Shown: positions 10,471-53,268 of the stretch, piece by piece
Numbering within the stretch: the first letter of the stretch is position 1
How the letters are laid out: every line of letters starts with the position of its first letter
Source: Clostridia bacterium
GTDB taxonomy: Bacteria; Bacillota; Clostridia; Christensenellales; Borkfalkiaceae
Reading direction: 5' to 3'
Length of the DNA: 63,371 nt
Assembly (NCBI GenBank): GCA_017471945.1
Contig: JAFURH010000039.1
Coordinates: 1 to 63,371, forward strand
Position numbers and translations under genes: made by a program
The notes under the pieces: model-generated
What the model was told of the DNA's origin: nothing
Seen by the model: the letters and a program-made list of their open reading frames with translations, nothing else
The model's database searches: none

Positions 10471-10585
10471 GAATCAAGGGGCGTTGCCGCGGGGACGAAA
10501 AGCTTGCGCTTTTCTTTTAAAAGTCCTTTCCTACGGGGCTTCGCCCCTGCACCCCACGAGGTACTGAGTGCTTTGACCTCCCGTT
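10471..10585. repeat. hairpin-array element (family 1), copy A, truncated
   Basis: Retains the first-position hairpin start (CAAGGGGCGTTGCC), the AAAAGC/GCTTTT core hairpin, GGGGC-TTC-GCCCC and the GTACTGAGTGCT relic of the penultimate hairpin. Several core hairpins are missing. Confidence 0.75.
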
Positions 10586-10680
10586 TATTCCCTCGTGAAA
10601 CAAATCTGACAAACAAAGACAAAAATCCCCTCGCGCTTTGAAATTCCGACCGAGCGGGTTCGATATGATAGAGGTAGTTA

Positions 10681-11475
10681 ATGCTGATAGTCTGTTTACG
10701 CGTAAAAAAGCTCTTGAAAACGTTGGCGATCACACTCGCAGCCGTCGCGATCACCGTCGCGATCGTCGCGGCGAACGTCTATTCCGTGCAAAAGATCAAC
10801 GCCGGCAAAGAAAGCGTTGCGGCGGGTAGCGCAAGAGTCTTGCCGATCTATTCCGTCGCCACCGACGAAAAAAAGGTCGCCATTTCCTTCGACTGCGCTT
10901 GGGGCGTGGAATATACCGATAAGCTCCTCGAAATAATGCAAGCGAACGGGATTCGTTGCACCTTCTTCGCCGTCGAGTTCTGGGTGGAAAAATACCCCGA
11001 GTACGCGAAAAAGATCGTCGAAGCGGGACACGAGCTGGGCACGCACAGCCGCACCCACCCGTATATGAGCAAGCTTTCCAAAGCGGAGATCGAGGACGAA
11101 CTCAAAACCTCGTCGGCTGCGATCGAGCGGGTGACGGGACAGAAAGTAACGCTTTTTCGCCCCCCGTACGGGGACTATAACGACACGCTCGTGAATACGG
11201 CGAAGTCGCTCGGGCTTTATACCATTCAATGGGACGTGGATTCTTTGGACTGGAAAAACCTGTCCGCAACGGAAATTTCGCTTAGAATCGTCAACGGCGC
11301 GAAAAACGGGTCGATCATTCTTTGTCACAACAACGGTCTGCATACGGCGGAGGCCCTGCCGATGATCTTTGCCACGCTCCAAAACCGCGGGTTCGAATTC
11401 GTGCCCATCGGGGAATTGATCTATAAGGATAACTATACCATCGACGCGACGGGAAAACAACATAAAAACGGCTGA
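10681..11475 (+). CDS. polysaccharide deacetylase, PdaB/YbaN-like
   Basis: 264 residues. One N-terminal transmembrane/signal helix (about 10-34), then a NodB-homology deacetylase domain (about 60-250). Motif 1 is SFDCAWG rather than TFDDG, as in sporulation-type PdaB proteins; motif 2 GHELGTHSRTHP supplies metal histidines; RPPYGDYN is motif 3; DVDSLDW is motif 4; the catalytic-His motif is ILCHNN. It removes acetyl groups from peptidoglycan amino sugars outside the membrane, and PdaB members act in spore cortex maturation. The substrate assignment is inferred. A GAGG site precedes the ATG. Confidence 0.88.
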   Translation: MLIVCLRVKKLLKTLAITLAAVAITVAIVAANVYSVQKINAGKESVAAGSARVLPIYSVATDEKKVAISFDCAWGVEYTDKLLEIMQANGIRCTFFAVEFWVEKYPEYAKKIVEAGHELGTHSRTHPYMSKLSKAEIEDELKTSSAAIERVTGQKVTLFRPPYGDYNDTLVNTAKSLGLYTIQWDVDSLDWKNLSATEISLRIVNGAKNGSIILCHNNGLHTAEALPMIFATLQNRGFEFVPIGELIYKDNYTIDATGKQHKNG

Positions 11476-11530
11476 AACGCGCAGCCGAACTTATCACGAA
11501 AACGAAAAAAATTAACGACGGAGGTCAATT

Positions 11531-12235
11531 ATGAATTACTCAACGGAAAAAAACAACAAAGTGTATTTAATGGGCGAGATCGTCAGCGACGCGACCTTTT
11601 CGCACGAGGTGTACGGCGAGGGCTTTTACGAATTTTACGTAAAGGTGATGCGCCTTTCGGGACAGGCGGATATTTTGCCCGTCACCGTGTCCGAACGGCT
11701 GATCCAAGGCGCGCTTTTGGGCAAGGGCAGAACGATTTGCGCGGTCGGGCAGTTTCGAAGCTATAATAAGCTCGAAAACGGGAAATCGCGGCTGATGCTC
11801 ACGGTGTTCGTGCGCGAGCTTTTGGACGAAACGCCCGACAAAAACCCGAACAATATCCTTTTGAGCGGCTATATCTGTAAGCCGCCCGTCTACCGCACCA
11901 CCCCCTTCAACCGCGAGATCGCGGACGTGCTGATCGCAGTCAATCGCGCTTACAATAAATCCGATTATATCCCCTGTATCGCGTGGGGCAGAAACGCGCG
12001 GTTCGTCAAAAACCTTTGCGTGGGGGATAAGGTCGCCATTTCGGGGCGCATCCAGAGCCGCGAATACCAAAAACGCTATTCGGACGCGGATATCCGCACG
12101 ATGACGGCGTACGAGGTATCCGTTTCCAAACTCGCGGCGTTCGAGGCGGGAGAGGAGTTCGATATCGAAAGCGAATTCGACCTGTATACGCTGCCGAAAG
12201 CGGACGTTGCGCCCGTCACCGATAATATCGGCTGA
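11531..12235 (+). CDS. single-stranded DNA-binding protein with two OB folds
   Basis: 234 residues, longer than classical SSB (about 150). Two successive OB-type halves are visible: residues 8-98 (KVYLMGEIVSDATFSHEV... up to VFVRELLD) and 106-195 (NILLSGYICKPPVYRTTPFNREIADVLIAV... KVAISGRIQSREYQKR). The second half carries the PVYRTTPFNREIADVLIAVNR strand typical of primosomal/SSB family members. No acidic DDDIPF-type tail is seen. Clostridia have such tandem-SSB proteins in addition to the essential SSB; role in DNA binding inferred. GGAGGT site before the start. Confidence 0.8.
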   Translation: MNYSTEKNNKVYLMGEIVSDATFSHEVYGEGFYEFYVKVMRLSGQADILPVTVSERLIQGALLGKGRTICAVGQFRSYNKLENGKSRLMLTVFVRELLDETPDKNPNNILLSGYICKPPVYRTTPFNREIADVLIAVNRAYNKSDYIPCIAWGRNARFVKNLCVGDKVAISGRIQSREYQKRYSDADIRTMTAYEVSVSKLAAFEAGEEFDIESEFDLYTLPKADVAPVTDNIG

Positions 12236-12264
12236 GAAAGAACGAAAAAACGACGAAAAACTTC

Positions 12265-12300
12265 CGTTTTCGAGAAAAATCGAGGACGGAATTTTTATTT
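12265..12300 (+). terminator. terminator after the SSB-like gene
   Basis: TTCCGT/ACGGAA with an inner TCG/CGA pair, followed by ATTTTTATTTTT. Confidence 0.75.
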
Positions 12301-12370
12301 TTCCGTTCTTATTCCCGTATTCCGCGCATATAGTTAAATATAGCCGATAACAACCAAAAGGAGAAACAAT

Positions 12371-17353: not shown

Positions 17354-17392
17354 CAAAAGGTTTACCGAATCCGGTAAACCTTTTTTTCGTTA
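17354..17392 (+). terminator. terminator of the rplU-rpmA operon
   Basis: AAAGGTTTACCG pairs with CGGTAAACCTTT, followed by a T-run; strong intrinsic terminator. Confidence 0.9.
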
Positions 17393-17396
17393 ATTT

Positions 17397-17548
17397 TTTC
17401 ACTTCGTGAAAAGTGAAGTTTGACTTACAGTCAAGTGAAATTTTTGCTAACGCAAAAGTGAATTTGCTTCGCAGTTGCGGTAAGATTTTTACCATAACTT
17501 GCGCCACAGGCGCAAAGTTCACTTTCGGCATAAGCCGAAAAATTCACT
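17397..17548. repeat. GTGAA-linked hairpin array (family 2), copy 1
   Basis: A string of small hairpins (TTCAC-TTC-GTGAA; TTGACT-TAC-AGTCAA; TTTTGC-TAAC-GCAAAA; GGTAA-GATTT-TTACC; TTGCGCC-ACA-GGCGCAA; TTTCGGC-ATAA-GCCGAAA) separated by GTGAA or TTCAC linkers. It shares a 65-bp segment, inverted, with the copy at 37.8 kb. Its right end supplies the stop codon of rqcH. Confidence 0.85.
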
Positions 17549-19286: not shown

Positions 19287-19798
19287 ACGCGCCTCCTTTG
19301 TTAAGGTATATTGCCTAAATAAATTTTGGAAGTTCGGAAACTCCCTAATAAGGGTCAAGGGGATTATCCCCTTGCGGATTGTAAAGGCAGAGCCTTTACG
19401 ACCCTCTGTCAAGAGCCGCCGTCAGGCGGAAGAAAGTACCCATAATAGGAAAACGAAGCTTTCCGTCCCCGCGGCAACGCCGCGTATTCGCCTCACGGCG
19501 AAAGACGCAACCTATCGGTTGCTTTTAGGAGTCGGAGAACGGAGGGGCTTCGCCCCTTCCAACCCCACGAGGAACTGAGTTCCTCGACTTCCCGTAAGGG
19601 ACAACGCCCCTTACCCCTTTTTAGGGGGCTTTTCCAAGAATTTTTCGTCCTTTCAATAAATTATAGCGTAAATTTCGAAATTTGTAAACAAAAACGCTTT
19701 CTTTTCTTTGATAAATATGGTAAAATGTAGCTTGCGGGATAAAAAATTTCCCGCGCAAGCACAAAAAACAGTAAATATTATTCAGGAGAACGAATACT
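19287..19798. other. intergenic region rqcH-tig
   Basis: 511 bp between divergent genes. It contains hairpin-array copy B (19327-19626) and then about 170 bp of A/T-rich DNA ending in the tig leader. A -10 TAAAAT at 19721 is present without a clear -35. A GCGGGA/TCCCGC pair (19734-19757) flanks a T-poor loop in the leader. Confidence 0.55.
19327..19626 (+). repeat. hairpin-array element (family 1), copy B, full length
   Basis: All ten hairpin positions in order: AAGGGG-ATTAT-CCCCTT; GTAAAGGC-AGA-GCCTTTAC; CCGCC-GTCA-GGCGG; GGAAA-ACGAAGC-TTTCC; CGCGGC-AAC-GCCGCG; CGCC-TCAC-GGCG; GCAACC-TATC-GGTTGC; AGGGGC-TTC-GCCCCT; GAGGAACT-GA-GTTCCTC; AGGG-GTAAGGGACAACGCCCCT. Confidence 0.92.
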
Positions 19799-23037: not shown

Positions 23038-23320
23038 TCGCGGTTGACGGGAAGTCGAGAAACTCAGTTTCTCGTGGGGTGCAGGGGCAAAGCCCCGCAT
23101 TTATCGGACTTAGAAAAGCAAAACGAAGTTTTGCGCCTTTCGCCGTGAGGCGATCACGCGGCATAGCCGCGGGGACGAAAAGCTTGCGCTTTTCTTTTAC
23201 GGGTACTTGATTCCGCCTAACGGCGGCTCTTGACAGAGAGTCGTAAAGGCTCTGCCTTTACAATCCGCAAGGGGATTATCCCCTTGACCCTTATTAGGGC
23301 GTTTCTGGACTTCCAAACTT
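23038..23320 (-). repeat. hairpin-array element (family 1), copy C, full length, reversed
   Basis: Complete copy in the opposite orientation to copy B: from CGAGAAACT-CA-GTTTCTCG through GCAAAAC-GAA-GTTTTGC, CGCGGC-ATA-GCCGCG and GCCTTTAC to AAGGGGATTATCCCCTT. It fills the 339-bp gap between clpX and the next gene. Confidence 0.92.
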
Positions 23321-24105: not shown

Positions 24106-24111
24106 ATTACT

Positions 24112-24238
24112 CGCAATCTTCGATTGCCTATACGCCTTTCGGCGTAAGGGCGCAACCTATCGGTTGCTTGTTGGGGGCATAGGACGCGAGGGCTCTGCCC
24201 TCAACCTCCCGCAAGGGGCAACGCCCCTTGACCCTTAC
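24112..24238 (+). repeat. hairpin-array element (family 1), copy D, partial
   Basis: Starts inside the core: GCAATC-TTC-GATTGC (a different stem at the position that is CGCGGC/GCCGCG elsewhere), CGCC-TTTC-GGCG, GCAACC-TATC-GGTTGC, GAGGGC-TCT-GCCCTC, then AGGGGC-AAC-GCCCCT. The penultimate hairpin is missing. Confidence 0.85.
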
Positions 24239-26321: not shown

Positions 26322-26603
26322 GTAAGGGTCGAGGGGATAATCCCCTCGCGGATTGTAAAGGCAGAGCCTTTACGACCCTCTGTCAAGAGCCGCCGTTAGG
26401 CGGAACAAGTACCCATAAAAGAAAAACGCAAGCTTTTCGTCCCCGCGGCTATGCCGCGTGATCGCCTCACGGCGAAAGGCGCAAAACTGCGTTTTGCTTT
26501 ATTGAGTCCGAGAACGCGGGGCGTTGCCCCACACCCCACCAGAAACTGAGTTTCTGGACTTCCAACCGTAGGGGCAACGCCCCTTGACCTTTGGCTCTTA
26601 GTC
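26322..26603 (+). repeat. hairpin-array element (family 1), copy E, full length
   Basis: All ten positions. First stem GAGGGG-ATAAT-CCCCTC, seventh GCAAAAC-TGC-GTTTTGC, eighth GGGGC-GTT-GCCCC, ninth CCAGAAACT-GA-GTTTCTGG. It fills the 309-bp gap between engB and lon, two co-oriented minus-strand genes. Confidence 0.92.
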
Positions 26604-29089: not shown

Positions 29090-29368
29090 CCCAAGGGTCG
29101 AGGGAAGTATTCCCTCGCTGTGACGGGAAGTCCAGAAACTCAGTTTCTGGCGGGTGTGGGCGGAGCCCACGAAAACAATGCCCAAAATAAGCAAAACGCA
29201 GTTTTGCGCCTTTCGCCGTGAGGCGAATTCGCGGCGTTGCCGCGGCGACGAAAAGCCAATGCTTTGCTTATAGGAGTCCGAGAATGCGGGGCGTTGCCCC
29301 TGCACCCCACCAGAAACTGAGTTTCTGGACTTCCGACCATAGGGGCAACGCCCCTTGACCCTTGCTTT
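29090..29368. repeat. hairpin-array element (family 1), copy F, composite
   Basis: The ninth-position hairpin CCAGAAACT/AGTTTCTGG occurs at both ends in opposite orientation; the core (GCAAAAC-GCA-GTTTTGC, CGCC-GTGA-GGCG, CGCGGC-GTT-GCCGCG, AAGC-CAAT-GCTT) is reversed relative to the right arm. First hairpin GAGGGAA-GTA-TTCCCTC. Located between lon and a terminator. Confidence 0.9.
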
Positions 29369-33296: not shown

Positions 33297-33556
33297 TTAA
33301 GGTCAAGGGGCGTTGCCCCTTGCGGATTGTAAAGGCAGAGCCTTTACGACCCTCTGTCAAGAGCCGCCGTTAGGCGGAATCAAGTACCCATAAAAGAAAA
33401 GCGCAAGCTTTTCGTCTCCGCGGCTATGCCGCGTGCTCGCCTCACGGCGAAAGACGCAACCTATCGGTTGCTTATTTTGGGCATTGTATTCGTGGGCTCT
33501 GCCCACACCCGCGAGGGGATTATCCCCTCGACCCTTACTTAGTTTCTGGACTTCCT
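33297..33556 (+). repeat. hairpin-array element (family 1), copy G
   Basis: Positions 1-8 in forward order (AAGGGG-CGTTG-CCCCTT ... GTGGGC-TCT-GCCCAC), ending with GAGGGG-ATTAT-CCCCTC in place of the usual right end. It occupies the gap between the convergent ricT and rsmG genes. Confidence 0.9.
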
Positions 33557-34327: not shown

Positions 34328-34560
34328 TTATCCACCTGTGGACAACTTTTGTGGACAAGTCGATTAAATTTATTTTTATACATTATTTTTTAATATTTAT
34401 TCAAATAAAGAAAAAATGACGAAACGAATTCTTTCCACTTTTCCACAATCTTTCCACTTTTCTATCCACCGAAAAAGTAAGGGTTATAAACAGCGTTTTG
34501 GGTATCGATTTTATCATACGTGAAAAGGGATTCGACAAATTTCGCGCTCGGTTATCAACA
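34328..34560. other. DnaA-box cluster 1 with AT-rich tract, candidate origin
   Basis: DnaA-box-like 9-mers: TTATCCACC (34328), TGTGGACAA (34337 and 34350), TTTTCCACA (34439), CTATCCACC (34462), TTATAAACA (34484), TTATCAACA (34552), all 1-2 mismatches from TTATCCACA. A strongly A/T-rich tract (34363-34412) lies between the boxes and could be the unwinding element. rsmG runs left and dnaN right. dnaA is not adjacent. Confidence 0.65.
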
Positions 34561-37106: not shown

Positions 37107-37137
37107 CCTTTCCTTGAAAAAATTTTTTAAGGAAAGG
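37107..37137 (+). other. hairpin between rpmH and rnpA
   Basis: CCTTTCCTT pairs with AAGGAAAGG, with an inner AAAAAATTTTTT that can extend the stem. There is no U-tract after it, so a processing site or mRNA stabiliser is more likely than a terminator. Confidence 0.55.
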
Positions 37138-37188
37138 ATTTGAATTTATTCTCTTTCCGCATCCGAAATCATAAGGAGGAAAGCAAGA

Positions 37189-37506
37189 ATGCAATACGCA
37201 AGGCTTAAAAAACAAGCGGATTTTCAAAAGCTTTTTTCCTCCGGGAAAAGAGGCTTTTCCCCGTCTCTCACCCTTTTATACCGCCCGCACGCAGAACTTA
37301 GAATGGGCATCTCGATCGGGAAAAAACACGGCAAAGCGGTGGTGAGAAACCGAATTAAAAGGCTGATTCGGGAAGCGTTCCGCGAAGTCGAAGGAGAAAT
37401 CAAAGGCACGTATTCTATCGTTTTAGTACCGAAGATCAGGGAAGAATATTCCTTTACTAAATTCAAAGACGATCTCAGATGGATAATACGCAAAGAAAAG
37501 CTTTAA
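37189..37506 (+). CDS. rnpA: ribonuclease P protein component
   Basis: 105 residues. The RNR motif region KKHGKAVVRNRIKRLIREAFRE (about residues 46-67) is diagnostic, and the N-terminal ARLKKQADFQKLFSSGKR is typical. The protein helps the RNase P RNA bind precursor tRNA. AAGGAGG precedes the ATG. Its 3' end may overlap the reading frame of yidD if that gene starts early. Confidence 0.97.
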   Translation: MQYARLKKQADFQKLFSSGKRGFSPSLTLLYRPHAELRMGISIGKKHGKAVVRNRIKRLIREAFREVEGEIKGTYSIVLVPKIREEYSFTKFKDDLRWIIRKEKL

Positions 37507-37592
37507 ATTTCGGTTTTTTCCGCTCTTTACTGCGGGAAAATTTCCGATATCTGAGAAAGAAAGTGTTTAAACCTTATCTAAGGGGTTTTTGT

Positions 37593-37808
37593 ATGCGCGC
37601 GATCTTGTTTTATCAGCGCCGACTTTCAAAGCATACTTGTCTTTACCGCCCCACCTGCTCGCAGTATACCCTCGAAAGCATCAATAATAACGGCGTGATT
37701 TTGGGGATTTTATTAGGGGCGTTTAGAATACTTCGGTGTAATCCCTTTTCCAAAGGCGGATACGACCCCGCGCCCGAACGGTTCGGGTGGAAAAAATGGG
37801 TGATTTAA
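37593..37808 (+). CDS. yidD: membrane protein insertion efficiency factor YidD
   Basis: 71 residues from the ATG at 37593, behind an AAGGGG site; this matches the family length. An in-frame ATG at 37479 would add 38 residues overlapping rnpA. Motifs: FYQRRLSKHTCLYRPTCSQYTLESI and FRILRCNPFSKGGYDPAP, the three-cysteine YidD signature. YidD is a peripheral membrane protein that helps YidC insert proteins. It lies between rnpA and yidC as in most bacteria. Confidence 0.93.
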   Translation: MRAILFYQRRLSKHTCLYRPTCSQYTLESINNNGVILGILLGAFRILRCNPFSKGGYDPAPERFGWKKWVI

Positions 37809-37814
37809 GAAAAG

Positions 37815-37998
37815 AGTGAAGTTTTTCACTCCGTGAAAAGTGAGTTTTAATAAATTAAGTGAATTTTTCACCCAAAGGGTAAAAGTGAACTTTGCGCCGA
37901 TGGCGCAAGTAGAGGTATAAAGTTTTACCGCAACTGCGAAGCAAATTCACTTTCGCGAAGCGAAAAATTAACTTTTGCGAAAGCAAAAAATTAACTTT
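37815..37998. repeat. GTGAA-linked hairpin array (family 2), copy 2
   Basis: Hairpins TTTTCAC-TCC-GTGAAAA, TTTTCACCC-AAA-GGGTAAAA, TTGCGCC-GAT-GGCGCAA, TTTCGC-GAA-GCGAAA and TTTTGC-GAAA-GCAAAA, separated by GTGAA, TTCAC or TTAAC linkers. The segment from GAATTTGCTTCGCAGTTGCG onward is shared, inverted, with the copy at 17.4 kb. It fills the gap between yidD and yidC. Confidence 0.85.
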
Positions 37999-38025
37999 AA
38001 ATATAATATTTGGAAATAACAAAGA

Positions 38026-39450
38026 ATGCAATTATTTAATTTGATGGCGGAAACCATCACGATCTACGGGGAAACTTTTAACGTTTCCATCAACTGGATA
38101 GGGAAAATCATTCGCTGGCTCGTTAACGGCGCGGGCGTCGGCTTTGGTATTATTCTCTTTACCCTGATTTTGAAGCTGATCGTCCTTCCTTTCGATATCA
38201 AGCAACGCACCTCGATGCGCAAGCAGAATATCAAAATGAAAGAAAATAAGGATAAAATGGAAAAGCTGCAAAAGCAGTACGCGAACGACAAGGAGATGTA
38301 TAACCAAAAGCTGATGGAAATGTATAAGGAAAACGGCATTTCTATGTTTTCCTCTTGCCTTCCTATGATCTTGTCGCTCGTCATCTTTATCGTCGCGATC
38401 AACGCGTTTAATTCCTATTCTCAATACGCCGCGATCGAGAACTATAATTTGATGGTAAACGCGTATACCACGCAGCTGACCGACTATACGGCGGAGATCA
38501 AAAACGAAAATATCACCGTCGGAAGCGACGAAAACGGCAACGAATACTACCTCGTGGACGAGGATAAAGAAGGCGTTTATATTTCCATTCGGGTGAAATA
38601 CGACGAGGCGTATAAAGAAGATCCCGCCGCTTATATTTCCACGCTCGACAATATGAGCGAGATCAAGGAATTTTTGGTGAAAGAGGACGCGACCTACGCG
38701 GCGTTTAAAGACGAGGTAGATTCTCTCCTCGAAAAGAATAAAGAAAATACGGAATATACCAAAGGCGTGGCTTGCAAGAAAGTTCTCCAAGAGCGAGCGC
38801 AGGAAGCCGTTGAAAAGGAATACGACGAAGAAGTTTCGGGAAAAATGAGCTTCCTTTGGATCAAGAATATATGGCAGACGGACGCGGCGTACGCAAGCCC
38901 CGTTTTGAGCTTTTCGAAGTTCAAAGAGGCGGCGAAGCAGGAAGATTTCGTCAATTCGAAAGATAAAGAGATCAGCTTTTCGACTGTCAATAAGAATACG
39001 GACGCGTATAAAAAGGCGACGTATAACGAGGTCACGGCGAATTTGTCCGCCCATAAAAACGAGGCGAACGGGTATTTCGTTTTGATCGTGCTTTCGATCG
39101 GTACGATCCTTTTGCAACAATGGATCTCGATGCGTTCGCAAAAGGAACAGAATCAATTCTCGTCCGTAGACGGACAAGGCGCGTCCCAACAGAAAATGAC
39201 GATGATCATTATGACGGTGATGTTCGCGATCTTCTCGTTTATGTACAGCGCGGCGTTCTCCATTTATATGATCGTGGGGAACTTGTGGTCGCTGGCGGAA
39301 ACGGTTTCGATCAACAAGATCGTGGACGTGGTCGAAGCGAAAAAAGAAGAAAAGGCGATGCAGGCGAAATACAACAAGCGTTTCCCCGGTCGCGCCGCCG
39401 AGGATAAAAACGGCAAAAAGAAAGAGAAAAAGAACGAAAAAAGAAAATAA
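38026..39450 (+). CDS. yidC: membrane protein insertase YidC/Oxa1, with enlarged loop
   Basis: 474 residues against about 260-280 for typical firmicute YidC. The core is clear: TM1 with FGIILFTLILKLIVLPFDIKQ (Lys50 at the position of the catalytic groove Arg), a cytoplasmic coiled-coil hairpin (about 62-105), TM2 (about 110-128, SSCLPMILSLVIFIVAI), and C-terminal helices from about 346 on (FVLIVLSIGTILLQQW, IIMTVMFAIFSFMYSAAF, LYMIVGNLW-like). Between them lies a hydrophilic region of about 215 residues (130-345), ending with SFLWIKNIWQTD, a relic of the normal FLWFDL loop. No lipobox is seen. The ribosome site is weak. Confidence 0.93.
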   Translation: MQLFNLMAETITIYGETFNVSINWIGKIIRWLVNGAGVGFGIILFTLILKLIVLPFDIKQRTSMRKQNIKMKENKDKMEKLQKQYANDKEMYNQKLMEMYKENGISMFSSCLPMILSLVIFIVAINAFNSYSQYAAIENYNLMVNAYTTQLTDYTAEIKNENITVGSDENGNEYYLVDEDKEGVYISIRVKYDEAYKEDPAAYISTLDNMSEIKEFLVKEDATYAAFKDEVDSLLEKNKENTEYTKGVACKKVLQERAQEAVEKEYDEEVSGKMSFLWIKNIWQTDAAYASPVLSFSKFKEAAKQEDFVNSKDKEISFSTVNKNTDAYKKATYNEVTANLSAHKNEANGYFVLIVLSIGTILLQQWISMRSQKEQNQFSSVDGQGASQQKMTMIIMTVMFAIFSFMYSAAFSIYMIVGNLWSLAETVSINKIVDVVEAKKEEKAMQAKYNKRFPGRAAEDKNGKKKEKKNEKRK

Positions 39451-39481
39451 CCCTCTATAAGGGATTTGGAGATTTCAGAAA

Positions 39482-40447
39482 ATGAACTACACGGAATTTA
39501 CGGGAAAGACGGTGGAAGAAGCTGTTGAAAACGGACTCAAAGAGCTTGGCATCACGCGTGAAAACGCGGATATCCGTATTTTGGAAGAAGGCAAGAAAAA
39601 GCTGTTCGGGTCGGTGAAGGCACGCGTGGAGATCGCGGCTAAAAATGCGGAAACGGCGACGGAAACGATCGAAAAGGAAGAAACCCAAACGGAAACGGTC
39701 GAAGAAAAGATCGTTGAATCGGCGGCAAACTCCACGGAAGGAATGACGGACGGCGAACGCGCGGTCGCGTTTTTGGACGGGCTTTTCGAAATTCTCCATA
39801 TCACGGCGTGTACGGAGCTGGTTTCCGAAGGCGATAAGATCGAGATCAACGTCACGGCGGCGAACACGACTTCCATTATCGGTAAGCGCGGCGCGACGCT
39901 CGACGCGGTGCAAACGCTTGCGGGCGCGGTGGCGAACACGGGCAGAGACGATTATAAACGCGTGGTCGTAGACTGCGAAAACTACCGTGAAAACCGCGAA
40001 GCGACCTTGAAAAAGCTCGCGGAAAACCTTGCGGCGAAGGCGACGAGATTGGAAAAGAAGATCAAGCTCGAACCGATGAATCCTTACGAAAGACGCATTA
40101 TTCATTCCGCACTTTCTCAGATCGAAGGGGTGTCCACGCAAAGCGAAGGCAAAGAGCCTAATCGTTATATCGTGGTGATTCCCGACAATCTTGCCGATCC
40201 CGAAGCGCCTGCGCTTTCCGCGCGTAACGACAGAGATCGCGGCGGCAGAGGCGGTCATTCCTCGCGCGGCGGATACGGTCGCGGCGGGTACGACAAAAAG
40301 CCCTATAATCGCGGCGGGTACAATAAGAAGCCGTATAACAACCGTCGTCGTGAAGGCGGTTCGAGTGAACAGACGGGCGGCACGACGATGAAAAAATCCG
40401 ATTTCTTCGGCACGTTTTTGGGAAACAGCAAAGATAATCAAGACTAA
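39482..40447 (+). CDS. jag: RNA-binding protein Jag/KhpB with RGG-like C-terminal tail
   Basis: 321 residues. Jag-N domain (1-52, ending GSVKARVEIA), a Glu/Thr-rich linker, KH domain (about 95-165, with IIGKRGATLDAVQTLAG) and R3H domain (about 170-235, RIIHSALSQIEGVSTQSEGKEPNRYIVV). The last 75 residues are unusual: GGRGGHSSRGGYGRGG, KPYNRGGYNKKPYNNRRREGG, an RGG/YNR-rich disordered tail. KhpB binds RNA with KhpA and affects cell elongation. The position after yidC is conserved. A GGAG site precedes the ATG. Confidence 0.93.
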   Translation: MNYTEFTGKTVEEAVENGLKELGITRENADIRILEEGKKKLFGSVKARVEIAAKNAETATETIEKEETQTETVEEKIVESAANSTEGMTDGERAVAFLDGLFEILHITACTELVSEGDKIEINVTAANTTSIIGKRGATLDAVQTLAGAVANTGRDDYKRVVVDCENYRENREATLKKLAENLAAKATRLEKKIKLEPMNPYERRIIHSALSQIEGVSTQSEGKEPNRYIVVIPDNLADPEAPALSARNDRDRGGRGGHSSRGGYGRGGYDKKPYNRGGYNKKPYNNRRREGGSSEQTGGTTMKKSDFFGTFLGNSKDNQD

Positions 40448-40702
40448 ACGGGATAGGAAATCCAAAAACTCAGTTTTTGGCGGATTGTAAAGGCAGAGCC
40501 TTTACGACCCTCTGTCAAGAGTCGCCGTAAGGCGAAAGAAAGTACCCTTAATAGGAAAACGAAGTTTTCCGTTCCTTTCGCCGTTGGCGATTGTGCAATC
40601 AAAGATTGCAAGATAACGCAACCTACGGTTGCTTAATTAAGTCCGATTATGCGGGGCGTTGCCCCTGCACCCTACAAGGGGATAATCCCCTTGACCCTTT
40701 AT
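40447..40702 (+). repeat. hairpin-array element (family 1), copy I
   Basis: Starts with CCAAAAACT-CA-GTTTTTGG, then positions 2-8 forward. Variant stems include GCAATC-AAA-GATTGC at position 5 and GCAACC-TAC-GGTTGC at position 7. It ends with AAGGGG-ATAAT-CCCCTT. Between jag and queT. Confidence 0.9.
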
Positions 40703-40717
40703 AAGAAATAAAAAATA

Positions 40718-40757
40718 CGGAAGGTTTTCGGCAAACACTTCCGAATAAAAAAACCGA
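40718..40757 (+). ncRNA. preQ1-I riboswitch (translational)
   Basis: Stem CGGAAG (40718-40723) pairs with CTTCCG (40738-40743) around a 14-nt loop. The A-rich tail AATAAAAAAA leads to CCGA (40754-40757), which pairs with TCGG in the loop (40728-40731) to form the H-type pseudoknot of preQ1 class I aptamers. The GAGG ribosome site (40756-40759) of the next gene overlaps the pseudoknot, so ligand binding should block translation. The downstream gene is a QueT-type transporter, which supports the call. Confidence 0.82.
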
Positions 40758-40768
40758 GGTACAATTTT

Positions 40769-41296
40769 ATGCAAAAACTCTTTACGACCAAGCGGCTTTG
40801 CCGCGCGGGAGTTATCGCGGCTTTATACGTTGCGCTCACCTACGCCTTCGGCGGGTTATCCTTCGGCGGGTTTTTACAGATCCGACCGGCGGAAGCGCTT
40901 TGTATATTGCCTCTTTTTTATATCGAAGCGATTCCCGCGCTGTACGTGGGCTGTATGCTCTCCAACCTCACTTCCCCCTTTTTTCTTTACGACGTGTTTT
41001 TAGGCTCGCTTGCAACTCTTCTCGCGGCGATACTCTCGTACCTGGTAGGGGTATTTTTGAAAAAGCGGGGCTGGAAGCTCTTTCTCGGCGGGCTGTTTCC
41101 CGTGCTCGTGAACGCGTTCGTGATCCCGCTGATTATCGTGTTTTTATGCGGGGATACGGGGGGGAAAGAAACGCTCGTGGGCGCGTACTTTTTCTTCGTT
41201 GGTTCAATGCTCGTCACGCAGTCGCTTTGGGTGTACGGCTTAGGGATACCCCTGTATTTTGCGATTGAAAGATCAGAAAAACAACTCCGCGAATAA
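40769..41296 (+). CDS. queT: QueT-family queuosine precursor transporter
   Basis: 175 residues, about five membrane helices, substrate-binding (S) component of the ECF-transporter type. Family features: ALYVALTYAFGGLSFGGFLQIRPAEALCILPLF (about 18-50), with the FLQIRPAEAL motif, and GCMLSNLTSPFFLYDVFLGSLATLLAAILSYL. It probably imports preQ1 or a related queuosine precursor, in agreement with the preQ1 riboswitch in front. It has no linked ECF A/T genes here and would share the general module. Confidence 0.9.
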   Translation: MQKLFTTKRLCRAGVIAALYVALTYAFGGLSFGGFLQIRPAEALCILPLFYIEAIPALYVGCMLSNLTSPFFLYDVFLGSLATLLAAILSYLVGVFLKKRGWKLFLGGLFPVLVNAFVIPLIIVFLCGDTGGKETLVGAYFFFVGSMLVTQSLWVYGLGIPLYFAIERSEKQLRE

Positions 41297-41313
41297 AGCG
41301 GAGTTGTTTTTTT
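41281..41313 (+). terminator. queT terminator
   Basis: CAACTCCGC pairs with GCGGAGTTG around the stop codon, followed by TTTTTTT. Confidence 0.88.
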
Positions 41314-41335
41314 ACCTAATTTGGAAATCGTATAA

Positions 41336-41602
41336 TCAGGGTCAAGGGGCGTTGCCCCTTGCGGATTGTAAAGGCAGAGCCTTTACGACCCTCTGTTAAG
41401 AGCCGCCGTTAGGCGGAATTGATGCTAAAATAAGAAACCGACGGGTTGCGCCTTTCGCCGTGAGGCGATCACGCGGCACAGCCGCGGAGACGAAAAGCTA
41501 ACGCTTTTCTTATTTGGGTACTTTTTTTCGTGGGCTCTGCCCACACCCGCCGAAAACTGAGTTTTCGGACTTTCCAGATAGGGCAACGCCCCTTGATTCT
41601 GC
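41336..41602. repeat. hairpin-array element (family 1), copy J, core inverted
   Basis: Left arm positions 1-3 forward (AAGGGG-CGTTG-CCCCTT, GTAAAGGC/GCCTTTAC, CCGCC-GTTA-GGCGG). The core is reversed (AACC-GAC-GGGTT, CGCC-GTGA-GGCG, CGCGGC-ACA-GCCGCG, AAAAGC-TAAC-GCTTTT). The right arm is forward (GTGGGC-TCT-GCCCAC, CCGAAAACT-GA-GTTTTCGG). Confidence 0.92.
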
Positions 41603-41614
41603 CCTATAAAAGGG

Positions 41615-42298
41615 TTAGGAGATCACCCAAGTTAAGATATGGCTCAAAGGATTGTCGTGGAAAAGACCGCCAATGAATAACGTTTGGTCCATAAGCTCCG
41701 TGATTCCGAGTGACGAGAAAATAGACAGGATCGCAAGCACTACGCATACTAATAAACCGCCTTTGATAAAGCCGAGTACCGCCCCTAATAATGCGTTGAG
41801 CGCGCCTACGATAGGGATTAAAGAAATAACGCCGTTCAAAACCTTCACTAAAATTCTCAGAATAATTTTGCAAAGGAAGAACAAAACTACGCCGGCAATC
41901 AAACCGATAGCGAAAGACGCAATTTTGCCCCCCGTCACCATTGCAAGCGTTGTGCCGGCGGGAACGCTTTTACTTGCAAATTCGTCCACGAGCGCGTCTG
42001 CGATAAAGCTCGGCACGGAAACTTCTTTTAACGCTTCCTTAATGCCCGTTGCCGAAATGTCGATATTAAAGCCCGCAACGTCTTCCAGTTTGTTCGTGAT
42101 CGCTTTGTCGATTACCCCTTCTAAGCCGAATAAACCGCCCGTTAGATCCGCGAATTGATCGGCGAGTGAGAATGCCACGACGAGCGCGATAATCGTCGTC
42201 AAAAATCCAAAAAGACCGCCGATAAAGCCTTTCTTTGCCCCGCCGAGGGTGAAAAACAGCAGCAGTACGACGGCAACGACGTCTAAAATATAAGCCAT
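41615..42298 (-). CDS. CvpA-family membrane protein
   Basis: 227 residues with four membrane segments (about 5-22, 30-48, 120-145, 165-190), the CvpA pattern including LDVVAVVLLLFFTLGGAKKGFIGG at the N-terminus and NALLGAVLGFIKGGLLVCVVLAIL near residues 165-190. CvpA proteins affect colicin V production in Escherichia coli and cell-envelope homeostasis elsewhere; the molecular role is unknown. An extra Ala/Glu-rich outer region (about 55-118) is longer than usual. AGGAGG precedes the start. Confidence 0.82.
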   Translation of the reverse strand: MAYILDVVAVVLLLFFTLGGAKKGFIGGLFGFLTTIIALVVAFSLADQFADLTGGLFGLEGVIDKAITNKLEDVAGFNIDISATGIKEALKEVSVPSFIADALVDEFASKSVPAGTTLAMVTGGKIASFAIGLIAGVVLFFLCKIILRILVKVLNGVISLIPIVGALNALLGAVLGFIKGGLLVCVVLAILSIFSSLGITELMDQTLFIGGLFHDNPLSHILTWVIS

Positions 42299-42395
42299 AA
42301 AAACCTCCTGAAAAGTGTGTTCGATATACTATATCCGTCTTGCTTGGGATTTATTCCTCGCGCGGGCGGGTATGAATTTTTTTTGAACTGTTTTT

Positions 42396-42424
42396 ATTAT
42401 AACATATTTTTTCGGATTGTTCAA
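42396..42424 (-). promoter_or_regulatory. cvpA promoter
   Basis: Minus-strand TTGAAC (42419-42424), 17 bp, TATAAT (42396-42401); about 90 nt of leader follows. Confidence 0.75.
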
Positions 42425-42514
42425 GTATTTTAACAAAAAATTTTAAGGAAGTATGAAATATAAGAAAAAAGGCAATCATTGACGAGGAAGATTTTAAAAA
42501 AGCGAGGGAAAGAG

Positions 42515-43111
42515 ATGGAGTACGCGTTTAACGTCTATAATAAATTCGCCGCGGACGGCGCGGCGATGTCCGTGCAGAAATTTTTGAGCGCGGCTTGGCA
42601 GCGCAGACAAGAAAGAGAGCAAACGGACGGGGCAGGTACGCGTTTAACGGGGTTGAACTCCTCTCCCGTCGTCGTGTGCGTAGGCAGCGATCTTGCGATC
42701 GGGGACTGCTTAGGTCCGATCACGGGCTCGATGTTGAAGCGAAAAACGCAAGGTCTTTCGACGTTTATCTACGGTACGCTCTCCGCGCCCGTGACGGCAA
42801 AAGAAATCAGATATATGCGGAAATTTTTAAAGGAAACGCATCCGAAAACGCCCGTGATCGCGGTGGACGCCGCCGTCGGCGGGGAAGGCGATATCGGACT
42901 CATCAAAATTTCCGATTCCCCTTTGCGCCCCGGCGCGGGCGCGAATAAAAACCTCGGCACGGTCGGGGATCTTTCGGTGATGGGGATCGTCGCGGAAAAG
43001 TCGGTGGCGAATTACGCGCTCTTGAACCAAACGCGGCTCAATCTCGTTTATAAAATGTCGGAAATCATCTCCGACGCGCTCGCGAATTTATTATATGAAA
43101 AACGCGTATAA
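42515..43111 (+). CDS. yyaC: spore protease YyaC
   Basis: 198 residues from the ATG at 42515 (GAGGGAAAGAG in front). Hydrogenase-maturation/GPR-like peptidase fold: VVVCVGSDLAIGDCLGPITGSMLKRK (about 53-78) with the metal-type Asp, VIAVDAAVGGEGDIGLIKISDSPLRPGAGANKNLGTVGDLSVMGIV (about 112-158). YyaC is conserved in spore formers and lies near the origin beside parB in Bacillus. Its substrate is not established. It ends just before DnaA-box cluster 2. Confidence 0.9.
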   Translation: MEYAFNVYNKFAADGAAMSVQKFLSAAWQRRQEREQTDGAGTRLTGLNSSPVVVCVGSDLAIGDCLGPITGSMLKRKTQGLSTFIYGTLSAPVTAKEIRYMRKFLKETHPKTPVIAVDAAVGGEGDIGLIKISDSPLRPGAGANKNLGTVGDLSVMGIVAEKSVANYALLNQTRLNLVYKMSEIISDALANLLYEKRV

Positions 43112-43176
43112 AAAGTTATAAATTTATAATTGAATATTCTTTGCAAAACGAAAAAACGGGGGTCTGCCACGCTGCT

Positions 43177-43460
43177 TGTGGACAAACTCCCGTTTTCCAC
43201 AAGTAAAAAATCAAAATTGTGGATAAAAACCCGCGCGAATCCCGTCGCAACGGGTCGGATATTGGATTTTTATGGAAAAAAGGGTCGAAATTTCAAAAAA
43301 TTGTGGATAACCTATCCTCAAAGGCGCTTGTGGAGAAGTATTTTTTGAATAATTTATGTGGATAAGTGAGTAAAATGTGGAAAAAACAACGGATTTTTCA
43401 AGTAAAACCCCCGCTTTTTGGGCTTAGTTATCCCCAAACGTTTGTTTTGGTTGTGGATAA
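43177..43460. other. DnaA-box cluster 2, dense, with perfect boxes
   Basis: Perfect boxes (TGTGGATAA, the complement of TTATCCACA) at 43218, 43302, 43357 and 43452. One-mismatch boxes at 43177 (TGTGGACAA), 43193 (TTTTCCACA), 43329 (TGTGGAGAA), 43376 (TGTGGAAAA) and 43428 (TTATCCCCA). Nine sites in 284 bp. The 398-bp gap (43112-43510) has no gene; A/T-rich DNA lies at 43105-43140. Confidence 0.75.
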
Positions 43461-44269: not shown

Positions 44270-44514
44270 ACGGTAAGGGTCAAGGGGCGTTGCCCCTTGC
44301 GGGTGTGGGCAGAGCCCACGAATACGGACTCATTAAAGCAAAACGCAGTTTTGCTTCCTTCGCCGAGAGGCGATCACGCGGCACAGCCGCGGGGACGGAA
44401 AACTTCGTTTCCCTTTTAGGGGTACTTAATTCCGCCTAACGGCGGCGACTGCCGTCGAGGCGCGGGGCGTTGCCCCACACCCCACGAGAAACTCAGTTTC
44501 TCGACTTCCGTTTA
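44270..44514. repeat. hairpin-array element (family 1), copy K, rearranged
   Basis: Order: AAGGGG-CGTTG-CCCCTT, GTGGGC-AGA-GCCCAC, GCAAAAC-GCA-GTTTTGC, CGCC-GAGA-GGCG, CGCGGC-ACA-GCCGCG, GGAAAAC-TTC-GTTTCC, CCGCC-TAA-GGCGG, GGGGC-GTT-GCCCC, GAGAAACT-CA-GTTTCTC. The core and third hairpin are reversed. It lies inside the two-gene repair operon. Confidence 0.9.
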
Positions 44515-48192: not shown

Positions 48193-48485
48193 AGGGCAAC
48201 GGATAGGAAGTCCAGAAACTCAGTTTCTGGCGGATTGTAAAGGCAGAGCCTTTACGGCCCTCTGTCAAGAGCCGCCGATAGGCGGAATAAAGTACCCATA
48301 ATAGGAAAACGAAGTTTTCCGTTTCTTTCGCCTTTGGCGATTTTGCGGCTACGCCGCAAGATAGCGCAAAACTGCGTTTTGCTTTCCTAAGTCCGATAAA
48401 TGCGGGGCTTTGCCCCTGCGCCCCACCAGAAACTGAGTTTCTGGACTTCCCGTCACTACGAGGGGATAATCCCCTCGACCCTTAT
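48193..48485 (+). repeat. hairpin-array element (family 1), copy L
   Basis: Begins with CCAGAAACT-CA-GTTTCTGG, positions 2-9 forward (CCGCC-GATA-GGCGG, GGAAAAC-GAA-GTTTTCC, TGCGGC-TAC-GCCGCA, CGCC-TTT-GGCG, GCAAAAC-TGC-GTTTTGC, GGGGC-TTT-GCCCC, CCAGAAACT-GA-GTTTCTGG), ends with GAGGGG-ATAAT-CCCCTC. Between ftsH and parB. Confidence 0.92.
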
Positions 48486-48519: not shown

Positions 48520-49356
48520 ATGAGAAAGACGAAAAAGAACCGTCCGATAAGCCTCGATTACGAGGAGAAAACTATCCCTGTTCGGCTCGTGGATTGCCCG
48601 CGCGAGCCCGCCGACTACGAGGAAAAGGAATTGCGCACCAAAGCGGCGTATTTTTTATTAAACGGGCTACCCGTGTACGCGGTGAACGCCGTGGAGGGCA
48701 GGTATAAACTGCTCGCCGCAGAACGGGAATTTTGCGCGGCGATCGCCGCGGGATATACCGAAATTACCGCCCGCGTGTACCGCTTTGGAGAAAAACACGC
48801 GGAAATCTTTTCCCTGACCGAACGATTGAAAACGGAATCGCTCGGCGCGATGGAAGAGGCGTACTTAATGGAAAGGCTCGTCAAAGAGTATAAGCTCACG
48901 CAAGACGAGGTTGCGAATCTGATCGGGAAATCCCGCCCCGCCGTCGCAAACACGTTACGGCTTTTAACGCTCGCCCCCGAGGTGGTCGGTTTGGTGGAAA
49001 GCGGAAAGCTTTCGGCGGGTCACGCCCGCGCTTTGGTGAAGGTGGATAAGGACAAGCAGTACGCGTTCGCGCAGGAAGCGTTGAAGCGGGAATATTCGGT
49101 GAGGGAAATGGAACGCGCGGTGAAGGCGTTTTTGACCCCGCCTGAGATTTTAAAGCAGGAGCGCGACGCCCTGAAAGCGGCGAAAAGCGAGGAGCTCAAA
49201 GCGTTCGTAGAGCGTATGCGCGCGGTGTTCAGGACGAAGGTTTCGTTGATCGGGAACGACAAAAAGGGTCGAATTTATATCGATTATTATTCGGCGGAGG
49301 ATTTATACAGGATCGAAGAATACCTCGACGTTTTGGAACGCTTCGGCGAGGAATAA
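48520..49356 (+). CDS. divergent ParB/Spo0J-family protein
   Basis: 278 residues. The ParB-like N-domain is shortened, and its CTP-binding box is altered: YKLLAAEREFCAAIAAG (about 62-78) aligns with the canonical YxLIAGERRWRAAxxAG, so GERR becomes AERE. The HTH (about 107-133, LTQDEVANLIGKSRPAVANTLRLL) and the following helices are typical of ParB/Noc. The C-terminal dimerisation part (about 230-278) is present. ParB binds parS and helps chromosome segregation. No parA neighbour is seen. A parS-like site is 4.7 kb downstream. AAGGAG precedes the start. Confidence 0.85.
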   Translation: MRKTKKNRPISLDYEEKTIPVRLVDCPREPADYEEKELRTKAAYFLLNGLPVYAVNAVEGRYKLLAAEREFCAAIAAGYTEITARVYRFGEKHAEIFSLTERLKTESLGAMEEAYLMERLVKEYKLTQDEVANLIGKSRPAVANTLRLLTLAPEVVGLVESGKLSAGHARALVKVDKDKQYAFAQEALKREYSVREMERAVKAFLTPPEILKQERDALKAAKSEELKAFVERMRAVFRTKVSLIGNDKKGRIYIDYYSAEDLYRIEEYLDVLERFGEE

Positions 49357-51872: not shown

Positions 51873-51892
51873 TCGCTTCGAAAAAAGCAAAC

Positions 51893-51924
51893 GAAAAACC
51901 TCCGAAAATTCGGAGGTTTTTTTG
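51893..51924 (+). terminator. gapA terminator
   Basis: AAAAACCTCCGAA pairs with TTCGGAGGTTTTT, followed by TT; strong. Confidence 0.92.
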
Positions 51925-51935
51925 CGCTTAGTTAA

Positions 51936-52208
51936 GGAATAAGGGTCGAGGGGCGTTGCCCCCACGTTGGGAAGTCCAGAAACTCAGTTTCTGGCGGGTG
52001 TGGGCAGAGCCCACGAACACGGACTCAATAAAGCAAAACGCAGTTTTGCGCCTTTCGCCGTAAGGCGATCACGCGGCAAAGCCGCGGAGACGAAAAGCTT
52101 GCGCTTTTCTTTTATGAGTCCTGTTAAGAAGGGGCGCTGCCCCTTCCAACCCTGCAAGGAACTAAGTTCCTTGACTTCTAAACGGGCTTCCAAACCGACA
52201 AAGGGTAG
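51936..52208. repeat. hairpin-array element (family 1), copy M, composite
   Basis: CCAGAAACT-CA-GTTTCTGG and GTGGGC-AGA-GCCCAC reversed, reversed core (GCAAAAC-GCA-GTTTTGC, CGCC-GTAA-GGCG, CGCGGC-AAA-GCCGCG, AAAAGC-TTGC-GCTTTT), then forward right arm (AGGGGC-GCT-GCCCCT, AAGGAACT-AA-GTTCCTT). Between convergent gapA and yugP. Confidence 0.92.
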
Positions 52209-52218
52209 GGGACGGGGG

Positions 52219-52953
52219 TTAATCTCGTCTGCGCCTGCCGAACATTGCAAGCACCCAGATAAGGAAACGAAGGAAATAAACCAGCGAGGTCGCAAGCGCC
52301 GCTACGTAGGTGAGCGCCGCCGCGCGCAAGACCTTTTCCGCGCCGTGAATTTCGTCGTCGGCTAATACGTTTTCTTCTAAAAGCATCTGCTTTGCCCGAC
52401 GGCTCGCGTCGAGCTCTACGGGCAGGGTCACGAGCATAAACAGCGTGGACGCGCCGTATAACGCCACGCCGACCATCGCGACCCAAAACCCGACGTCCGC
52501 GTTCGCGTTTACGAGGAAAAGATCGAGCAACACGCCCAAAAGCACGAGCGGGAGCGCAAGGCGTGAGCCGAAGTTGGCAACGGGCACGAGCGCCGCGCGG
52601 AGTTTATAGGGCAAATAGCCCTTTTTCTTTTGCATTACGTGCCCGATCTCGTGCGCCGCCACGGCAACCGCCGCGATCGAGCTTTCCCCGTACACGCTTT
52701 CCGAAAGGTTCACGAGCTCTTTTCGGGGGTTATAGTGGTCGGTGAGCTTGCCGCGGACTCGTTCTACGGAAACGTCGTGAACGCCGCCGCGCTTTAAAAG
52801 TCGGACCGCCGTATCGTAGCCCGTCAAGCGGGAACGGTTTGACACTTCGCCGAACGCCGCGTAGGACGAGTGGACTTTTCGGCTTGCATACGCCGAGAAC
52901 ACGGCGCAAACGCCGAGGATCAATAGAAAAATAATATACGTTCTGAAATCCAT
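52219..52953 (-). CDS. zinc metallopeptidase, YugP family
   Basis: 244 residues. One N-terminal helix (about 4-24), then the metallopeptidase part with AVAAHEIGHVMQKKKGYLPYKLR (HEIGH zinc motif near residues 101-105), and three further helices (about 118-140, 150-178, 220-238). VTLPVELDASRRAKQML (about 176-192) is the family motif. A membrane-bound neutral zinc peptidase of unknown substrate. The AGGAG site is adequate. Flanked on both sides by hairpin-array copies. Confidence 0.88.
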   Translation of the reverse strand: MDFRTYIIFLLILGVCAVFSAYASRKVHSSYAAFGEVSNRSRLTGYDTAVRLLKRGGVHDVSVERVRGKLTDHYNPRKELVNLSESVYGESSIAAVAVAAHEIGHVMQKKKGYLPYKLRAALVPVANFGSRLALPLVLLGVLLDLFLVNANADVGFWVAMVGVALYGASTLFMLVTLPVELDASRRAKQMLLEENVLADDEIHGAEKVLRAAALTYVAALATSLVYFLRFLIWVLAMFGRRRRD

Positions 52954-52982
52954 AATTTTCTCCTTTTTATTATGTAGTAGAG

Positions 52983-53268
52983 TATAGGGTTAAAGGGCGT
53001 TGCCCCTACGGTGGGAAGTCCAGAAACTCAGTTTCTGGCGGGTGTGGGCAGAGCCCACGAACACGGACTCAATAAAGCAAAACGCAGTTTTGCGCCTTTC
53101 GCCGTGAGGCGAATTTGCGGCAAAGCCGCGGAGACGAAAAGCTTGCGCTTTTCTTTTATGGGTACTTGTTCCGCCTAACGGCGGCTCTTGACAGAGGGTC
53201 GTAAAGGCTCTGCCCCTGCACCCCGCGAGGGGATTATCCCCTCGACCTTTACTGAGGGTCAAAACTTC
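52983..53268 (-). repeat. hairpin-array element (family 1), copy N, reversed
   Basis: Reversed order as in copy C: CCAGAAACT-CA-GTTTCTGG, GTGGGC-AGA-GCCCAC, GCAAAAC-GCA-GTTTTGC, CGCC-GTGA-GGCG, TGCGGC-AAA-GCCGCG, AAAAGC-TTGC-GCTTTT, CCGCC-TAA-GGCGG. After GTAAAGGCTCTGCC the sequence switches to a right-arm linker (CTGCACCCCGCG), then GAGGGG-ATTAT-CCCCTC. Confidence 0.92.

Follow-up and report, generated by a model that had tools for sequence, protein, structure and literature searches.

Introduction

Tagged repetitive extragenic palindromic (REP) sequences have been described mainly from Proteobacteria, where many are presumably moved by REP-associated tyrosine transposases (RAYTs), one group, the CGTC REPs, being without a dedicated transposase (PMC3733652). 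Inverted REP doublets are the proposed moving unit (PMC3116915), and a guide tetranucleotide lies at the foot of the hairpin both in REPs and in insertion sequences (IS) of the IS200/IS605 type (PMC6006769). PMC3733652 contains no mention of Firmicutes or Clostridi-. Here we analyse a stretch of 63,371 nucleotides from a Clostridia bacterium of the Borkfalkiaceae (assembly GCA_017471945.1, contig JAFURH010000039.1, positions 1 to 63,371; hereafter the window), which carries 14 arrays of short hairpins. We read the arrays, with a probability of about 0.6, as copies of a dispersed, non-autonomous, strand-specific hairpin DNA repeat that is mobile in the style of REPs and bacterial interspersed mosaic elements (BIMEs), the form dispersed in this species being mostly an inverted dimer of ~250 bp. 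The grounds are the absence of arrays from orthologous sites, the modular exchange of hairpins, the pairing of their stems, a mismatch bias towards one strand, the unlikeness of dimer halves and the spread of a core over several families.

Like REPs, BIMEs and REPINs (REP doublets forming hairpins), the element is present between genes in many copies of short hairpins, each set bearing a brief unpaired tag at one end, and it forms inverted doublets with the preference for heterodimers that most REP families show (PMC3733652). Many intergenic palindromes, often in inverted pairs, characterize REPs and BIMEs; here, 34 such dimers were found at the own-genome loci examined, those in the window being intergenic. 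The tag, however, is GGTC or AGTC rather than GTAG (GTGG) or CGTC (TGTC, CCTC), and the unit has two to six hairpins where a REP has one. Its stems measure 8-9 with a loop mostly of 3, whereas CGTC REPs have loops of 4-5, and it lacks a RAYT link, whereas in RAYT-associated REPs and BIMEs the RAYT gene is flanked by the repeat.

The ends of IS200/IS605 elements (HUH Y1) also carry a strand-specific hairpin with a tag at the 5' foot (PMC6006769), but our element holds no transposase gene, and PF01797, found in 13 of 41 genus genomes, is unrelated to element content. BOX elements of streptococci resemble it in their composite modules of fixed order and variable copy number, in being foldable and in being thought non-autonomous; they occur in other hosts and, as boxA-boxB(n)-boxC, are not inverted dimers of one unit, which sets them apart by description (PMC3049150). 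Clop-1 and Clot-1 to Clot-3 of Clostridium are likewise repeated stem-loop families of Clostridia (PMC2267715), likened here by description, with kinship neither shown nor excluded. Among the top-ranked open-access matches, motif letters included, there was no report of such repeats in this order. The best reading is that of a REP/BIME-like mosaic whose tag differs, whose unit comprises several hairpins and which lacks a link to RAYTs; its core seems undescribed in the open-access literature searched. An earlier reading of the window from its letters alone (the sequence-only reading) had called the arrays not a simple REP, which is right, yet their organisation is REP/BIME/BOX-like.

Layout of the arrays and of the hairpin unit

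Inspection of sequences across the window confirmed all 14 arrays as real, intergenic and located where the sequence-only reading had placed them. Their neighbours include divergent, convergent and codirectional gene pairs. In twelve arrays (19.3, 23.0, 26.3, 29.1, 33.3, 34.7, 40.5, 41.3, 44.3, 48.2, 52.0 and 53.0 kb), two copies of a directional hairpin unit are joined tail to tail as an inverted dimer, which measures 235-299 bp from outer tag to outer tag; the arrays at 10.5 and 24.2 kb, each of ~130 bp, consist of a single or decayed unit. The arrays take up a substantial part of the window, as had been noted, the measured share being ~5.4% (13 spans amounting to 3293 bp, plus ~130 bp for the 24.2 kb copy) and not the ~6% first given. 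The inverted-dimer layout, the avoidance of likeness between halves and the identity of the window as a replication origin, described below, had gone unmentioned in that reading.

In the 5' to 3' direction, the tag of the unit (GGAAGTC, AGGGTC or GAGGTC) is followed by hairpin A, which has an 8 bp stem and a loop of 3, by G(C/T)GG and by hairpin B (GGCNNNGCC core). Some copies then have hairpin C. Next come a linker (GGACTC, GTACCC or ATGCCC), a AATAAAAG-like linker, hairpin E and finally hairpins F and G. The part from A to E, as matched by the model R1, is mostly 80-117 bp long; hairpins E, F and G, which follow the second linker, belong to the unit as found in this genus. In the two-hairpin core, hairpin A carries a GGTC/AGTC tag at its 5' foot and is connected to hairpin B by a GCGGG-like linker. 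Two units joined tail to tail with a common centre give the arrays their look of a palindrome of palindromes. Linkers are constant and spacers are absent from the array sequences, in line with the earlier statements that the linkers do not vary and that the arrays are no CRISPR; the view that they are not an IS was likewise upheld.

Absence of the arrays from orthologous sites

For the arrays at 44.3, 48.2, 51.9 and 53.0 kb, 21 sites in relatives had both flanking genes in one orientation. R2, a model built from 20 cores of four families, matched at none of these 21 sites, and at 19 of them the spacer was shorter than that of the window. A missing core match together with a shorter spacer was seen in all ten collinear relatives for array 12 (48.2 kb) and in both for array 11 (44.3 kb). 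For array 14 (53.0 kb) there was no core match in seven of seven collinear relatives, and the spacer was shorter in six and equal in one (G016). Array 13 (51.9 kb) corresponded to a shorter spacer in one of two relatives, the gene pair not being adjacent in the other (G013). Elsewhere in the compared loci, R2 matched four times (three in L033, one in L047). The absence of arrays from orthologous sites indicates that the element inserts, which supports the direction of the earlier suggestion of a mobile structured DNA.

In G006 the gene order is rearranged, and the zinc-peptidase gene known as the neighbour of array 13 has an element just past its 3' end there (L047, 1154-1400); this is possibly a shared or recurrent site.

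Stem pairing and strand bias

The window holds 186 perfect hairpins (stem ≥6, loop 3-5), compared with 59-81 in five Markov copies, and ten clusters of at least four, compared with none in each copy. Nine of the ten clusters are arrays of the element, 5 of the 14 arrays falling below this strict criterion; the remaining one, at 17.36 kb, is another array, a cluster of four hairpins with A+T-rich stems (17355-17457) unlike the element. In 27 distinct monomers, hairpin A was 100% paired, two-sided changes numbered 35 against 10.9 in shuffled sets, and the covariation score was 0.482 against 0.181 (sd 0.021). The core, represented by 20 sequences from 4 families, part of which came via an RNA model that leans to pairing, was 99.2% paired and had two-sided changes in 10 of 13 pairs (4.9 when shuffled); its covariation of 0.418 against 0.196 (sd 0.019) was reached by none of 500 shuffles. 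Further pair types were not above the shuffled level (core 15 vs 14.0; hairpin A monomers 7 vs 8.3), and for hairpin A pairs with a two-sided change (5 vs 3.6), 43 of 500 shuffles were as high. The two-sided changes and the covariation above shuffles bear out the proposal of compensated hairpin modules.

Mismatches were counted in hairpin A with the four outer pairs anchored and the inner pairs free. Among the 1178 inner pairs of 284 units we found 33 G.T, 3 A.C and 3 other mismatches (nominal p=2×10−7), and among distinct hairpins 23 G.T and 3 A.C. With genome G044 left out, the counts were 16 and 3 (p=0.004), and at loci chosen without the RNA model (G000 and G004 by BLAST, metagenome-assembled genomes (MAGs) by pattern) they were 10 and 1 (p=0.012); in the pattern-found loci the inner stem of the retrieving unit is fixed by the pattern, which lowers all mismatch counts. 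The letter-reversed control yielded no units. We dropped a looser count (280 units, 55 G.T vs 16 A.C), whose reversed control gave 78 matches with a G.T lean of their own (25 vs 12), and an earlier one (172 units, 28 G.T vs 8 A.C) with 18 control matches. From DNA repair alone, G.T and A.C would be expected to be equal. G.T ranks with the most stable mismatches of both DNA and RNA, so the bias is what either a folded single strand of DNA or an RNA would give. One strand seems to be selected to fold.

The orientation of 49 one-orientation clusters relative to genes, taken from crude gene calls, showed no preference: 16 were sense and 14 antisense between codirectional genes, while 11 lay at convergent and 8 at divergent pairs. 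A further 11 clusters were of mixed orientation. The lack of preference favours DNA, with the reservation that the gene calls are crude. The hairpins could instead belong to a structured-RNA family, as own transcripts or untranslated-region elements that act after transcription, a role that the sequence-only reading had also offered. The covariation of stems and the tolerance of G.U on one strand would suit such a role. It would sit poorly, however, with the near balance of sense and antisense copies and with arrays between gene pairs of all three arrangements. With the majority of the examined own-genome copies being inverted dimers, both senses would be read, and the sites are not common to the species compared. 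By eye, no long common sequence precedes the tag (no promoter scan was made). The window had no match at the gathering score among 4227 Rfam families, the comparison proposed at the outset, and segment 51900-53300 (1401 bases) had one match at E 0.2, far under its cut-off. RNA as the primary role is therefore improbable.

The two halves of a dimer avoid likeness

Among the own-genome loci examined there were 34 inverted dimers. The halves carried the same variant in slot B in only one dimer, compared with 8.9 expected, and were alike in slot E in 2 (8.8 expected), in slot A in 9 (15.5) and in slot C in 12 (19.1). Slot D, alike in 8 vs 11.1 expected, did not differ significantly. Part of the unlikeness is explained by polarity, as 28 of 31 dimers have a GCAA-type hairpin E in one arm and not in the other. 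When the arms of 28 dimers were re-paired across loci with arm class kept, the arm-arm score rose from 22.3 to 33.9 (sd 3.0) and the longest perfect arm-arm run from 8.1 to 11.2 (P=0.0002); likeness in slot B was seen once, compared with 4.9 after re-pairing that kept arm class (P=0.008). Di Nocera and co-workers reported that heterodimers are preferred in most REP families, a prevalence without obvious explanation for which protection from SbcCD was suggested (PMC3733652).

A global fold of the whole dimer, a chain of four-way junctions built from complementary linkers, was rejected as the selected structure: linker variants of the halves are unmatched (slot D) and the hairpins are anti-matched.

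In the mobile-repeat reading, an enzyme would recognize the folded single DNA strand at the tag, by analogy with IS200 and RAYT transposases, which read a guide tetranucleotide at the hairpin foot, and would then move or copy that strand. The halves may differ because long perfect palindromes would be lost or cut by an SbcCD-type activity.

Distribution in the genome, the genus and the order

A 259-base query gave 60 BLAST pieces in the own genome, and R1 at least 77 matches (80 of 991 candidates scored). Within the genus, R1 matched 34 of 57 genomes (the own one among them), with 1 to at least 77 matches each. At the loci examined in other species of the genus, the unit was solitary in G005, G032 and G034 and stood in direct tandem in G004 (127 bp period), G024, G011 and G023, with both orientations present in G004. 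An exact hairpin pattern was found in at least 100 stretches; among the matches listed, all titles named uncultured Clostridia or Clostridiales MAGs, and those giving a source named roe deer, water deer or sheep gut.

Counting the own genome throughout, R1 occurred in 15 of 200 genomes of the order, and its matches in the five other-family genomes viewed (G044, G198, G211, G095, G170) consist of the A+B core, e.g. GGGTC-hairpin-GCGGGGT-hairpin. R2 occurred at E 1×10−4 in 29 of the 200, covering 13 families (23 of 162 among good genomes). Nine genomes, which belong to seven families, had at least 13 R2 matches when 30 candidates were scored in each genome; four of them (G142, G225, G234, G241) lay outside the seed set, the matches in G142 resembling hairpin A alone. 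GGGTC precedes hairpin A in the R2 consensus over four families, and 178 units, selected by such tags, had AAGTC (114), GGGTC (49) or AGGTC (15). A decoy, R3, in which the letters of R2 were reversed and both hairpins kept, matched in none of the 200 genomes and nowhere in 163 kb of own sequence including the window. Thus, direction and tag matter, and not merely the presence of GC-rich hairpins.

In the phylum, the R2 core was found in 17 of 299 genomes at E 1×10−3 (own included), mostly as single weak matches, with six in G546; its presence outside the order is doubtful. The full-element query was without a match in phages and plasmids, and the core query had no match in phages and a single one among plasmids, to a Streptomyces record (48 bases at 84%, E 2×10−4). 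Two exact patterns matched 1 and 3 stretches of viral contigs.

The element also occurs together with other repeats. In G095, from another family, the core lies inside a ~250 bp tandem repeat with several further hairpins (L201 and L230), and two solitary units of G005 (L089) are bordered by a second repeat (AATGCAAAATGC...), i.e. repeats nest. In two own-genome copies a second repeat of ~115 bp (GACGAGCTACCCGT...CCCGAGAA) is found at hairpin B, part of which it replaces (L063 ~580-705, L065 ~545-660).

Search for a mobilising enzyme

The domain Y1_Tnp (PF01797) scored over cut-off in the 13 genomes given above, and its presence was not associated with element content (Fisher p=0.73 for 41 genomes, many incomplete). 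PF01797 over cut-off was lacking in 10 of 13 genomes with at least ten R1 matches. As genus genomes are 58-96% complete, gene absence is a soft criterion; the element is nevertheless present without PF01797 in G011 (94% complete) and G061 (96%). R2 had no matches at ten Y1 loci or in a longer stretch (L070) around the broken own copy. The sequence-only reading had considered the arrays as a substrate of a RAYT; the lack of a genome-wide association with PF01797 and of a core element at Y1 loci speaks against this idea.

The own-genome Y1/RAYT-like gene is broken into two pieces with a stop (L028/L070, C33:889-1241), and identical scores were obtained in G016 (L029).

If a DDE transposase moved the arrays, they would be a miniature inverted-repeat element whose terminal inverted repeats are the tags and whose target is TA. 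This would account for the inverted ends and for the weak TA or RAYR preference beside the tag, and BOX and RUP are precedents (PMC3049150). Yet the IS630-type transposase domain DDE_3 was found in none of 57 genus genomes (other DDE families were not searched), and other species have solitary and direct tandem units without an opposite end. The order-level relatives viewed by eye were without TA at the tag. Such an element is very unlikely.

Replication origin and features of the window

The genes of the window include, by Pfam domain, holB, PSP1, rsmG, dnaN, rnpA, yidC, jag and ftsH. DnaA boxes (≤1 mismatch) number 26 compared with 6.7 expected and form clusters at 34.33-34.56 and 43.18-43.46 kb; the cumulative skew has its minimum at 34-35 kb. 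Window positions 31251-43460 are the chromosomal replication origin region. The coordinates are collected in Table 1.

Table 1. Coordinates of the arrays and of the DnaA-box cluster in the window
Feature	Position	Strand	Basis
Array 1, one decayed unit with hairpins A, B and E plus a remnant	10453..10581	-	R1 10496-10581 minus; R2 10532-10581
Array 2, inverted dimer	19350..19617	.	R1 19350-19465 plus, 19506-19592 minus
Array 3, inverted dimer	23050..23314	.	R1 23050-23135 plus, 23176-23292 minus
Array 4, single unit directly past a terminator-like hairpin	24108..24236 (left end set by eye)	-	R1 24151-24236 minus
Array 5, inverted dimer	26324..26591	.	R1 26324-26439 plus, 26480-26563 minus
Array 6, inverted dimer; further tag hairpins on the outside	29093..29363	.	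R1 29126-29208 plus, 29249-29334 minus
Array 7, inverted dimer	33299..33555	.	R1 33298-33414 plus, 33455-33536 minus
Array 8, inverted dimer; adjoins DnaA-box cluster; left end with GGGTC hairpin joined into AAGTC hairpin loop	34643..34941	.	R1 34690-34770 plus, 34811-34896 minus
Array 9, inverted dimer	40456..40699	.	R1 40456-40571 plus, 40617-40699 minus
Array 10, inverted dimer	41323..41599	.	R1 41337-41450 plus, 41491-41574 minus
Array 11, inverted dimer	44275..44509	.	R1 44275-44355 plus, 44396-44509 minus
Array 12, inverted dimer; neighbours are ftsH plus terminator and a ParB-like gene	48206..48483	.	R1 48206-48321 plus, 48365-48450 minus
Array 13, inverted dimer, bordered by zinc-peptidase gene	51941..52179	.	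R1 51970-52050 plus, 52091-52179 minus
Array 14, inverted dimer	52987..53249	.	R1 53014-53094 plus, 53135-53250 minus
DnaA-box cluster, replication origin candidate; context, outside the element	34328..34560	.	DnaA boxes; cumulative G-C minimum in 34-35 kb bin

R2 units above 30 bits numbered 26 in the 14 arrays of the window, compared with 10 in 6 arrays in 230.8 kb from 20 contigs taken by number (p=5×10−6, an optimistic value because the window was chosen for its arrays), an array density ~8 times that of the sampled contigs. In G007, picked for its known matches, there were six matches, one of them weak, in 66 kb of window-ortholog contigs and none in five controls (79 kb). G029 had three, one weak, in 76 kb of ortholog contigs, compared with one in 54 kb, and G023 one weak match in 60 kb. 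These counts show that origin enrichment is no rule of the genus.

Spread without a transposase can also be envisaged, by template switching during replication combined with quasi-palindrome repair, in which forks stall at hairpins and nascent strands switch from one copy to another, with the result that stems are corrected and modules shuffled. The density in the origin window would fit this, as would the different modules in the two halves of a dimer, junctions of the kind in which a GGGTC hairpin continues into an AAGTC hairpin loop (at the left of array 8 and the right of array 7), and the outcome of the Y1 and IS630-type searches. Acting alone, however, template switching gives no one-strand bias of G.T over A.C, no directional tag kept over several families and no units that start at the tag beside unrelated flanks. 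We regard it as unlikely, and prefer a mobile hairpin repeat.

A ParB-like gene is located at 48520-49356, and a parS-like palindrome at 54104-54119 has one mismatch to TGTTTCACGTGAAACA; 19 of 100 shuffles hold a site with ≤3 mismatches. Two repeat families contain a short motif, around GGGGGCAGGGT or the complementary letters, that is dispersed (window 1752, 2779, 18550, 33730, 45217, 55174 and 57621), and three direct repeats with 69 bp spacing at 60998-61165 perhaps belong to a gene for a repeat-containing protein.

Weight of the evidence and implications

Several points weigh against a mobile hairpin repeat. No mobilising gene was found in searches for Y1 and IS630-type transposases (other families were not sought). 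A target duplication is unreadable, relatives being only ~65-88% alike over matched genes, and the flanks show only a weak RAYR/TA preference beside the tag. R2 was absent from 12 of 12 genomes of other genera in the own family, which makes the spread patchy and gives no proof that the core was inherited in a plainly vertical way. A few founder heterodimers that spread could mimic the unlikeness of halves, in which case its p values are optimistic. As to the strand bias, 17 of the 33 G.T mismatches come from one genome, many order-level loci were picked by high rank in the RNA model, which favours G.U, and the common ancestry of copies makes the mismatch p values optimistic; the G.T excess could also arise from RNA. 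The gene calls behind the orientation counts were crude picks of open reading frames (ORFs), and these counts leave out 16 of 76 clusters that fell within called ORFs.

A wider proposal can be offered tentatively. The element may represent a third tagged superfamily of single-strand hairpin elements, with a GGTC/AGTC tag and a two-hairpin core, present in several families of one Clostridia order. It would be moved without a RAYT by an undiscovered enzyme, with heterodimers prevailing since perfect palindromes are purged, and with accumulation at the origin in at least one lineage.

Two cheap genomic tests used here can be applied to other families that resemble REPs, whichever they are: the strand-specific G.T bias probes whether one defined strand is read in folded form, and the re-pairing test why heterodimers prevail. 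If the mobile-repeat reading is true, the logic of REPs operates with another tag and without a RAYT link in several families of one order of Clostridia, which would point to an undiscovered hairpin-processing enzyme.

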